DNA of 21,380 nt from a virus: the IMG/VR virus record IMGVR_UViG_3300030331_002189, positions 1 to 21,380 of that record, one strand, 5' to 3'. A program made the position numbers and the translations under genes. Below, piece by piece: positions 11,602 to 15,965 of the stretch. Every line of letters starts with the position of its first letter. The first letter of the stretch is position 1. Below the pieces are notes generated by a model. That model saw only the letters and a program-made list of their open reading frames with translations, had not been told where the DNA came from and ran no database searches.

Positions 11602-11820
11602 ATGGGTAAATTTAAAAACATGGCTTATGACAAAGCCGAAAATACAATAGACGATAAAATTGAAAAAATTATCAAAGAAGATGTATCCGTTGAAAAAGCT
11701 GTTGATGAATTAATGAAAGACAATTATGTAAAGGCTTTTTTCACAAAAGATGAAGTTTTAAATATTATAACACATGAAATAAAGAAAGAATTAAATTATG
11801 GCAACGCCAGCGTCCATTGA
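11602..11820 (+). CDS. Hypothetical small acidic/basic helical protein
   Basis: A 72-residue protein. The open frame could start at 11521, but that ATG lies inside the promoter -10 region, so the ATG at 11602 after AAGAAAGAAAAAC is preferred. The sequence is helical and charge-rich (ENTIDDKIEKIIKEDVSVEK, VDELMKDNYVKAFFTKDEV). No family recognised. It overlaps the GP88-like gene by 23 bp and begins the AT-rich accessory operon. It could be a small regulator or partner of the next protein; there is no direct evidence. Confidence 0.6.
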   Translation: MGKFKNMAYDKAENTIDDKIEKIIKEDVSVEKAVDELMKDNYVKAFFTKDEVLNIITHEIKKELNYGNASVH

Positions 11821-12493
11821 AACATTAGTATTTAATCATTTAAGTAAACATTGGAACTTGAAAACAGCTAAAAAAATAACTGGTGGTGGCATTACAAAGA
11901 AAAACAAAAAGATGCCTTTTTATAATTATGATCTATCGGCTTATGACTGTGATAAGGGAACTCAGTTGAGAAAAGTCGCTAATTCTGTATGTTCAAAATG
12001 TTATGCTACAAATGGGAACTTTCAATATCCATCAGTAAAATTAAGTCATCAGTACCATATTGAAAGTTTAAATAATGGCTTTAACTGGGTTCTTGGTATG
12101 GCTTATCAAATACTAAAAACTGAAACCAAGTTTTTCAGATTTCATGCTTCAGGCGATTTACAAAGTATTGACCACGCAAAACAAATTATAAATTTAGCTA
12201 AATTGACCCCTTCTTGTAAATATTGGATACCTACAAGAGAGACAAGAATATTAAAAGAATTAAAAGAGCTAGATATTTTCATACCTAAAAATTGTATTTT
12301 TAGAGTTTCAGCGCCTATGGTAGATGGCCATTTAAATAGTAAAGTTTTTAAAAATACAAGCTCAGTTATTACAAGCGCAAAAAAAGCACATGGAAAAAAT
12401 ATTTGTCCGTCTTTAAATCAGGGCGGAAAATGCCTCGATTGCAGAGCTTGTTGGAATGGTAAAATAAAAAATATAAATTATCTATTGCATTAA
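11798..12493 (+). CDS. GP88-like protein (phage gene product 88 family)
   Basis: A 231-residue protein resembling the phage gene product 88 family. Diagnostic pieces are ANSVCSKCYATNGNFQYPSV (C65, C68), FFRFHASGDLQS (about 112-123), a P-x-C-x-Y-W-x-P-T-R-E-T-R segment (about 138-150) and a C-terminal Cys cluster ICPSLNQGGKCLDCRACW. The paired Cys motifs suggest metal or iron-sulfur binding. The family is widespread in phages and plasmid-like elements and its biochemical function is not known to me. It overlaps the upstream gene and is followed 14 bp later by a fresh promoter at 12485-12512. Confidence 0.75.
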   Translation: MATPASIETLVFNHLSKHWNLKTAKKITGGGITKKNKKMPFYNYDLSAYDCDKGTQLRKVANSVCSKCYATNGNFQYPSVKLSHQYHIESLNNGFNWVLGMAYQILKTETKFFRFHASGDLQSIDHAKQIINLAKLTPSCKYWIPTRETRILKELKELDIFIPKNCIFRVSAPMVDGHLNSKVFKNTSSVITSAKKAHGKNICPSLNQGGKCLDCRACWNGKIKNINYLLH

Positions 12494-15037: not shown

Positions 15038-15430
15038 GTGAAACCTGAGACAAAACTATGGAAACTTGTTAAATCAAAAACACCCTTAATTCGTTGGAAT
15101 AGAATAGAAAACTCAGTTAATAGTGGCTTTCCTGATCTTTTTGGAAGTGGTTTAAATTCTCATTTTTTTACAGTAGAATTAAAGATAACATACGATAACA
15201 AAACAGTCCGATTTTCTCCCCATCAAATAGCATTTCACAAAATTAATTCAGGCCTGAAATATATCCTGATTAGCCCCCCTTGTCAGTCGTCCGTAAAACT
15301 TTTTGAACATACAATCATCAATGGGCAGCGAACAAAATTCATTGACCATAAGCCATTGTCCGTTGTTGATGATACAAAGAACAATGAACAATGGACAACT
15401 TTTCAAAATAAAATGCTAGAAAATGCTTGA
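15038..15430 (+). CDS. VRR-NUC-like PD-(D/E)XK nuclease
   Basis: A 130-residue protein with a GTG start; a stop codon 22 bp upstream in frame and no ATG alternative make this start the only one possible. ETKLWKLVKSK, RIENSVNSGFPDLFG and FTVELKIT followed by VRFSPHQIAFH give the compact nuclease order: helix, Glu in RIEN, the G-x-P-D motif, E-x-K, and a trailing Q. This is the short phage VRR-NUC/Holliday-junction-resolvase-like family. The last codons and stop lie within a 23-bp direct repeat (15411-15433) whose second copy is at 15581. A weak promoter may lie at 15002-15029. Likely role: structure-specific DNA cleavage, inferred from the family. Confidence 0.78.
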   Translation: MKPETKLWKLVKSKTPLIRWNRIENSVNSGFPDLFGSGLNSHFFTVELKITYDNKTVRFSPHQIAFHKINSGLKYILISPPCQSSVKLFEHTIINGQRTKFIDHKPLSVVDDTKNNEQWTTFQNKMLENA

Positions 15431-15433
15431 CAA
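15411..15433 (+). repeat. 23-bp direct repeat, copy 1
   Basis: Identical to 15581-15603. It spans the end of the nuclease gene and contains TTGACA, the -35 of the promoter that reads into the GC-rich noncoding unit. The two copies are offset by 170 bp. Confidence 0.95.
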
Positions 15434-15455
15434 GATTTAATTTTTATGATATACT
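15427..15455 (+). promoter_or_regulatory. Promoter of candidate small RNA
   Basis: TTGACA (15427-15432), 17-bp spacer, TATACT (15450-15455). No ORF of any length follows before the terminator at 15544-15566. Confidence 0.7.
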
Positions 15456-15461
15456 GTCTGG

Positions 15462-15566
15462 GACGGTGGGCGGGGTAAGCTTGCGCCTTATACCCTGCTC
15501 GCTCGCTTCGCTCGCTCGCTTGCCGCTTGTTGCTTCAAAAAAAAAAAACGCGCTTCGCGCGTTTTT
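15462..15566 (+). ncRNA. Candidate small noncoding RNA (about 105 nt)
   Basis: Between the promoter at 15427-15455 and a strong terminator lies a GC-rich, gene-free stretch with G-runs (GGTGGGCGGGG), the 11-mer GCTTGCGCCTT (15479) and CTCG-type tandem repeats (CTCGCTCGCTTCGCTCGCTC). Promoter, structured body and intrinsic terminator together define a small RNA-like unit. Start is estimated 7 bp after the -10. Whether it is transcribed and what it does cannot be seen from sequence. Confidence 0.4.
15544..15566 (+). terminator. Rho-independent terminator
   Basis: ACGCGC (15548-15553), loop TTC, GCGCGT (15557-15562), extended by A-run/T-run pairing to a 10-bp stem with a T tract at the 3' side. 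The A-run upstream makes it able to work in both directions. Confidence 0.85.
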
Positions 15567-15580
15567 CGTTGTCCGTAAAT

Positions 15581-15603
15581 AAATGCTAGAAAATGCTTGA
15601 CAA
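15581..15603 (+). repeat. 23-bp direct repeat, copy 2
   Basis: Exact copy of 15411-15433, again supplying TTGACA as -35 of a promoter. With copy 1 it brackets the candidate small RNA unit. Confidence 0.95.
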
Positions 15604-15625
15604 CGGATAAAAAATAATTTATAAT
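15597..15625 (+). promoter_or_regulatory. Promoter without an obvious ORF
   Basis: TTGACA (15597-15602), 17-bp spacer, TATAAT (15620-15625): a full-consensus pair. It is followed by a G-rich stretch similar to that after the first copy (GGTGGCGGGGCGGG) and only 48 bp later by the next promoter. Confidence 0.75.
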
Positions 15626-15672
15626 ATGGGGTGGCGGGGCGGGATAAAATAAAAAACTTTTTAAATTAACTG

Positions 15673-15701
15673 TTGACAACTGATAACAGTTATGCTATAA
15701 T
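15673..15701 (+). promoter_or_regulatory. Cassette promoter 1
   Basis: TTGACA (15673-15678), 17-bp spacer, TATAAT (15696-15701) with an extended -10 TG. Core TTATGCTATAAT is identical in four cassettes. TAACTGTT (15667-15674) and AACAGTTA (15685-15692) form an 8-bp inverted repeat over the -35 and spacer. Confidence 0.85.
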
Positions 15702-15737: not shown

Positions 15738-15965
15738 ATGTTTTTAGTAATACAAAAAAGAGACTATTCAAACATTGATTCTATGAGTTTTGATGTCTTG
15801 ATGTACACAAAAGATTACGACCTTGCGATTGACTTTGCGAGGTGTAAAAGAAAAGAAGCAGAGGAAAAGGGCGACCATAATTATTATTATTCAGTAGTCA
15901 AGTTTCCTAGAATTGATGTTAGTTCAGAGGTTGAAACTGAGCAACGGGTCAATGACTACAACTAA
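15738..15965 (+). CDS. Small hypothetical protein, cassette 1
   Basis: A 75-residue protein behind cassette promoter 1 and a leader ACAGAAAGAGAAAG shared with other cassettes. Sequence: beta-rich start (MFLVIQKRDYSN), then a helix (YDLAIDFARCKRKEAEEKGD) and a beta strand (YYYSVVKFPRIDV). The overall layout resembles a small alpha/beta fold, but no family is recognised. A second short ORF starts inside its end. Function unknown. Confidence 0.65.
   Translation: MFLVIQKRDYSNIDSMSFDVLMYTKDYDLAIDFARCKRKEAEEKGDHNYYYSVVKFPRIDVSSEVETEQRVNDYN

Follow-up and report, generated by a model that had tools for sequence, protein, structure and literature searches.

The virus record analysed here in its entirety (IMG/VR IMGVR_UViG_3300030331_002189, 21,380 bp; hereafter the window) carries, between TerS and TerL, two tandem copies of a short unit in which a sigma-70 promoter runs directly into a G-rich motif. 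The architecture of this unit, an upstream box followed by the promoter and the G motif, is well supported. We suggest that it may well be a transcription-opened G-quadruplex/R-loop replication-origin element that has been tandemly duplicated in the window; this is the likeliest of the readings considered but a tentative one, in which the origin function is deduced from sequence. To our knowledge, few environmental phages have a known replication origin. If the unit is a true origin, it would offer a short, single-copy and searchable signature for predicting origins in uncultured phages, and transcription-driven G-quadruplex formation could be tested in a simple system. If it only adjusts a promoter, it would still be an unusual signature common to unrelated phages, for which we found no precedent in the literature.

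The window encodes DNA polymerase A, a primase-like protein, a UvrD-type helicase, a GP88 protein, TerS (on the minus strand) and TerL. TerL and the DNA polymerase are nearest to those of HTVC023P-type pelagiphages (54-64% protein identity), and comparison of the window with phage records at the DNA level gave no match. The nearest annotated phages are HTVC027P, HTVC023P and 023Pt_psg01, with 61-64% identity in TerL, 54-56% in the DNA polymerase and a similar gene order; the promoter with the G motif was not found in the syntenic 12-13.5 kb of these phages. In the TerS-TerL region of pelagiphage 023Pt_psg01, several G tracts of the GGGTGGGCCC type occur on the minus strand (L106, close to 7448, 8262 and 9859), without a consensus promoter. 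The GP88-type gene of the window (phrog_1392, 11798-12493) has a counterpart that adjoins the promoter-G unit of an unrelated family, here called B (L119:8040-8792).

A preliminary description of this DNA had reported two identical 23-bp copies that each supply a -35 box, the first as part of a TTGACA-17-TATACT promoter and the second as part of a full-consensus one. All of this is borne out (Table 1). The exact copies lie 170 bp apart from start to start. In the whole window just three groups of exact direct repeats reach 20 bp, and this pair is one of them. None of 100 first-order Markov sequences matched to the window in length and composition had any such repeat, and the 23-bp repeats are not due to chance. 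With up to 3 mismatches allowed, the 20-bp repeat core had no third match in the window, where chance would give 0.01 on average. The similarity between the copies runs beyond the 23 bp, across the -10 box and into the G motif (15460 and 15628), and the duplicated element is a unit of about 65 bp, not 23 bp, made up of the upstream box, the sigma-70 promoter with its 17-bp spacer and the G motif. In its recurring form, the unit reads TTAATGCTA(G/T)AAAATGC, TTGACA, 17 bp, TATAAT and then GGGGTGGCGGGGCGGGATA or near variants; the consensus of the G motif, GGGRYGGYGGG(G)NGGG, straddles the transcription start predicted from the promoter. The TGA stop of the upstream open reading frame falls inside repeat copy 1, which thus supplies the last codons and the stop; the product looks nuclease-like and has no Pfam match.

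Table 1. Features of the duplicated promoter region in the window, and parS sites in other contigs
Feature	Coordinates	Strand	Remarks
Upstream ORF, 130 aa	15038..15430	+	Weak match to PHROG 2165 (annotated 'DNA helicase'); 3' end overlaps P1
Repeat copy 1	15411..15433	+	Conserved upstream box AAATGCTAGAAAATGC and -35 TTGACA of P1
Promoter P1, TTGACA-17-TATACT, extended -10 TG	15427..15455	+	-35 at 15427-15432, -10 at 15450-15455
G motif of P1, GGGACGGTGGGCGGGG	15460..15475	+	Straddles predicted transcription start
Filler between the units	15479..15580	+	Short repeats (GCTCGC/CGCTTG), an A12 run and the terminator-like hairpin; unconserved among relatives
Terminator-like hairpin CGCGCTTCGCGCG (...ACGCGCTTCGCGCGT) and T5	about 15543..15567	+	A-run on the opposite side, bidirectional-looking
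Repeat copy 2	15581..15603	+	Upstream box and -35 of P2
Promoter P2, TTGACA-17-TATAAT, 12 of 12	15597..15625	+	-35 at 15597-15602, -10 at 15620-15625
G motif of P2, GGGGTGGCGGGGCGGG	15628..15643	+	Followed by A+T-rich DNA
Separate ordinary promoter, TTGACA-17-TATAAT	15673..15701	+	Serves next ORF 15738-15965
Host-type parS, perfect	L003:1792, L098:13629, L011:4649
Host-type parS, one mismatch	L086:12665, L093:2599, L082:46

An ordinary promoter like that at 15673 also comes after the P2 unit in relatives. Beyond P1 and P2, six more sigma-70 promoters in the window match the consensus at 12 of 12 positions (15673, 16108, 16634, 16843, 7936 and 11505); four of these six lie within 1.2 kb, have the -10 context TATGCTATAAT in common and each stand ahead of a small open reading frame.

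The duplication was compared among relatives of the window (family A), three of which came from an exact search of viral contigs with the 23-mer and more from a neighbouring protein and from the G motif. That the promoter is duplicated, as first described, is confirmed here: each copy is a complete promoter unit, and the same orthologous pair, P1 upstream and P2 downstream, is present in at least four other contigs (L002, L003, L089 and L091). An orthologous P1 is found in these four and in L099, while L001, L086, L093 and L098 have one P2-type unit only. The P1 units have a common spacer of their own, AAGATTTAAAATC..TGATATA, and the duplication is therefore probably older than the divergence of the phages that carry it. 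The two 23-mers are identical to each other in the window and in L003, which we attribute to a functional element being conserved or converted, not to a recent duplication of a target site; in L002, copy 2 has TATA in place of TAGA. Among P2 units the sequence of the G motif is strongly conserved. L085, which has a related TerL, may be a distant member of the family.

The coupling of promoter and G motif is not confined to family A. A pattern of the promoter followed by G tracts matched 20 viral DNA stretches, some of them from phages without visible relation to the window, compared with 0 for a control pattern in which the same promoter is followed by C tracts. In 257 Gb of bacterial genomes the promoter-G pattern had 7 matches, with the G3-N-G3 ending present only in one poly-G artefact; all seven were rejected on inspection as chance, GC-rich or poly-G matches. 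Searching with the G motif alone, we found a promoter in register (at least 9 of 12 consensus matches; 80 of 99 stretches read) at 17 of 22 sites in viral contigs with GC below 0.42, at 2 of 10 with GC of 0.42-0.50 and at 0 of 51 with GC of 0.50 or above. With the -10 box and G motif as the query, TTGACA or TTGACT stood at 16 of the 22 assessable sites, always at exactly 17 bp, and the other six had no -35; since several of the coupling sites come from one phage family, the independent cases are fewer than these counts.

The accepted members fall into families A (the window), B (L094/L096 and L119/L122), C (L100), D (L095, L102, L104, L161, L116 and L117) and H (L151/L171/L196). All of them have an in-register promoter sequence, and the G motif starts 1-4 nt past the -10 box and spans the predicted start. 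Families E (L103), with a different tract pattern, and F (L097/L101), with a GC-rich genome and one more G motif of this class that lacks a promoter match, are weak and doubtful members. The motif class occurs once per record in records of 149, 91, 75.5, 146.6 and 61.6 kb (the last read nearly completely), and as a tandem pair in the window and in the available sequence of four relatives. Short BLAST searches for the unit in phages and plasmids gave chance-level matches only, and no useful annotated relatives came from DNA searches with families B and D (distant) and H (near). Searches of the open-access literature turned up no previous account of phage promoters coupled to a G motif.

The surroundings of the unit resemble those of an origin in several ways. 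The promoter opposes the genes on both sides in family B (L119/L122) and family D (L116 and L117), and in A and C the unit is followed by a separate promoter that serves the next gene. In L089 P1, L098, L099 and L120 the -35 box is preceded by a perfect DnaA box, TTATCCACA, 27 bp ahead of its start, and tandem DnaA boxes 11 bp apart lie beside the unit in two members of family D (L117 and L095); beside the units of the window there is no perfect DnaA box. In L117, a 91-kb phage record, four 11-bp direct repeats based on the DnaA box TTATCCACA (1119-1172) directly adjoin the promoter-G unit. In five contigs of family A, a host-type parS centromere site (TGTTTCACGTGAAACA, 0-1 mismatch) is 29-87 bp away from the G motif; parS was found in only one other record among the 2.15 Mb scanned, and the window itself has none. 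Chromosomal parS sites are located near replication origins, according to a passage in PMC4333373. In HTVC027P a parS with one mismatch (L105:7413) lies in a stretch that matches the open reading frame upstream of the unit.

In families B and C, the motif is followed by about 100 bp of 92% A+T (GC 0.08). The DNA after P2 is also A+T-rich; such a stretch is absent in family D and after P1, where GC-rich filler follows. In five large records, the distance from the site to the cumulative GC-skew minimum was 1.9, 4.7, 6.5, 8.2 and 11.8% of the genome length, a proximity with a combined p of about 0.02 (Fisher sum over five records, two of them related). The site is 18 kb away from the skew minimum in G004 and 12 kb away in G008, and in the circular 48-kb G005 it is separated from the raw minimum by 15 bp. 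G005 (L118:9745 and L150:18664) has a second promoter-G unit, about 1.2 kb from the skew maximum.

We propose that the host polymerase would start within the G tract, that the non-template strand would then fold into a G-quadruplex, and that the nascent RNA would remain hybridised to the C-rich template as an R-loop. The R-loop could hold the DNA open and provide a primer or a loading site for phage DNA replication. In the lineage of the window, with its two units P1 and P2, the RNA from P1 (about 105 nt) would matter in cis, without a conserved downstream product. The tracts on the non-template strand follow the pattern G3-4, G2, G3-4, one base, G3-4, and as the second tract is only GG, a quadruplex would be two-layered or bulged. 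Folding with ViennaRNA gave -4.9 kcal/mol for P2, compared with -27.7 for the pilE sequence of Neisseria gonorrhoeae, and P1 favours a hairpin. As the motif lies partly upstream of the likely start, the RNA by itself may not contain all four of the tracts; given this, the GG tract and the weak RNA quadruplex model, we assume a structure of non-template DNA or of a hybrid. It is conceivable, although we hold this with less confidence than the origin reading itself, that unrelated phages converged on or exchanged one module, a sigma-70 promoter starting in a quadruplex-forming tract, and use it as a single-copy replication origin, in some cases alongside DnaA boxes of the host and a parS centromere site of host type.

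Known systems resemble the unit in part. The pilE G4 of N. gonorrhoeae, the best-known device of this anatomy, is like the unit in that a non-coding RNA starts inside a quadruplex-forming sequence with a G-rich non-template strand (PMC3547852); in the phage unit, too, the start predicted from the promoter lies inside four non-template G tracts. The pilE element differs in having four GGG tracts and in driving pilin recombination, not replication, whereas the phage unit has GG as its second tract and an origin-like neighbourhood. The R-loop origins oriF and oriG of T4 are about 100 bp long, combine a promoter with an A+T-rich unwinding element, use an R-loop primer and lie near transcription switches (PMC3016281). 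Families B and C match the oriF layout, with a promoter followed by the A+T-rich stretch; in contrast, the T4 promoters are MotA-dependent, no G tract is described as belonging to the T4 origin (PMC3016281), and P1 of the window lacks the A+T stretch. At human mitochondrial LSP/CSB II a G tract lies downstream of the promoter, as in the phage unit. The LSP is used by a single-subunit polymerase, and its G tract is well downstream of the start site. A passage in PMC5027508 states that a hybrid RNA-DNA quadruplex at CSB II can stop transcription and influence replication.

The units could instead be ordinary tandem early promoters that add to the transcription of the early gene at 15738, with the G-rich stretch tuning promoter escape, pausing or the response to GTP or (p)ppGpp. 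P2 is codirectional with this gene, no terminator lies between them, and the window has many other strong promoters nearby. In family H (L151, L171 and L196) a short open reading frame begins about 80 bp downstream of the unit, so that the promoter there may serve an mRNA. Yet the promoters of families B and D point against every flanking gene, a second promoter intervenes between unit and gene in A and C, the motif is missing from the phage's other consensus promoters, and several large phages have a single copy per genome. We consider this explanation possible but rather unlikely.

A recombination initiator like the pilE G-quadruplex, at which transcription folds the non-template strand and leads to nicks and gene conversion, shares its anatomy with the unit: a non-coding RNA that starts in the quadruplex sequence and leaves the G-rich strand unpaired (PMC3547852). 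It would also account for the identical 23-bp copies and the hypervariable short repeats, as the filler between units is highly variable and has heptamer arrays. Slippage alone can produce variable filler, however; neither donor cassettes nor a variable coding gene were seen, and the units of families B and C are followed by plain A+T DNA. Such a role therefore appears improbable. We give slightly less credence still to the G motif as a double-stranded operator through which a regulator blocks or activates the promoter. Its position from -4 to +13 is typical of operators and its sequence is highly conserved among P2 units, but it is not palindromic, its G runs are constant while the intervening bases vary, and the unrelated phages that carry it would all need the same regulator.

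The filler bears on the two interpretations offered in the preliminary description, neither of which is supported beyond the promoter duplication itself. It is GC-rich as described (0.57 vs 0.39 for the window), but not strictly free of open reading frames: a TTG-started frame of 51 codons (15427-15582) runs across it, although the filler itself is unconserved. The terminator-like hairpin is present, and a transcript from promoter to hairpin would be about 105 nt, as would suit a small RNA gene inserted between duplicated promoters. Such a gene is very unlikely. Over six relatives, the mean pairwise identity is 82% for the P1 unit and 58% for the body, compared with 51% for shuffled letters; the body varies in length from 98 to 267 bp, and the U-run terminator between P1 and P2 is found in the window only and is absent in the relatives compared. 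This lack of conservation in sequence, length and terminator argues against a conserved small RNA gene. Moreover, the fold of the body alone is not significantly better than that of shuffles (z -1.45), an Rfam scan matched no family and a tRNA scan found none. A short transcript acting in cis from P1 is possible; we note that for the pilE G4-associated sRNA the RNA sequence itself is unimportant (PMC3547852).

A tiny mobile unit with a 23-bp target duplication, suggested by the 147 bp between the exact direct repeats, is hardly credible, given that the repeats are conserved functional promoter DNA present also in one-unit relatives, that homology continues past them into the -10 box and G motif, that those of L002 differ, that the units diverge independently, and that comparison of one-unit and two-unit relatives showed no precise empty site. 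With the unit of about 65 bp present once or twice in relatives, the filler unconserved and the terminator unique to the window, neither reading fits, be it a conserved small RNA gene or a mobile element with target duplication.

The repeats in the P1-P2 filler across relatives include GCTCGC, CTTGACG and GGTTCGCTTGTA. Hypervariable tandem repeats (heptamers CGCTTGA and TTGTCCG; GCTCGC and CCTGAG units) occur at 15480-15530 of the window, in the P1-P2 gap of L002, L091 and L089, and upstream of the L001 unit, and many contigs stop near them, perhaps through assembly breaks.
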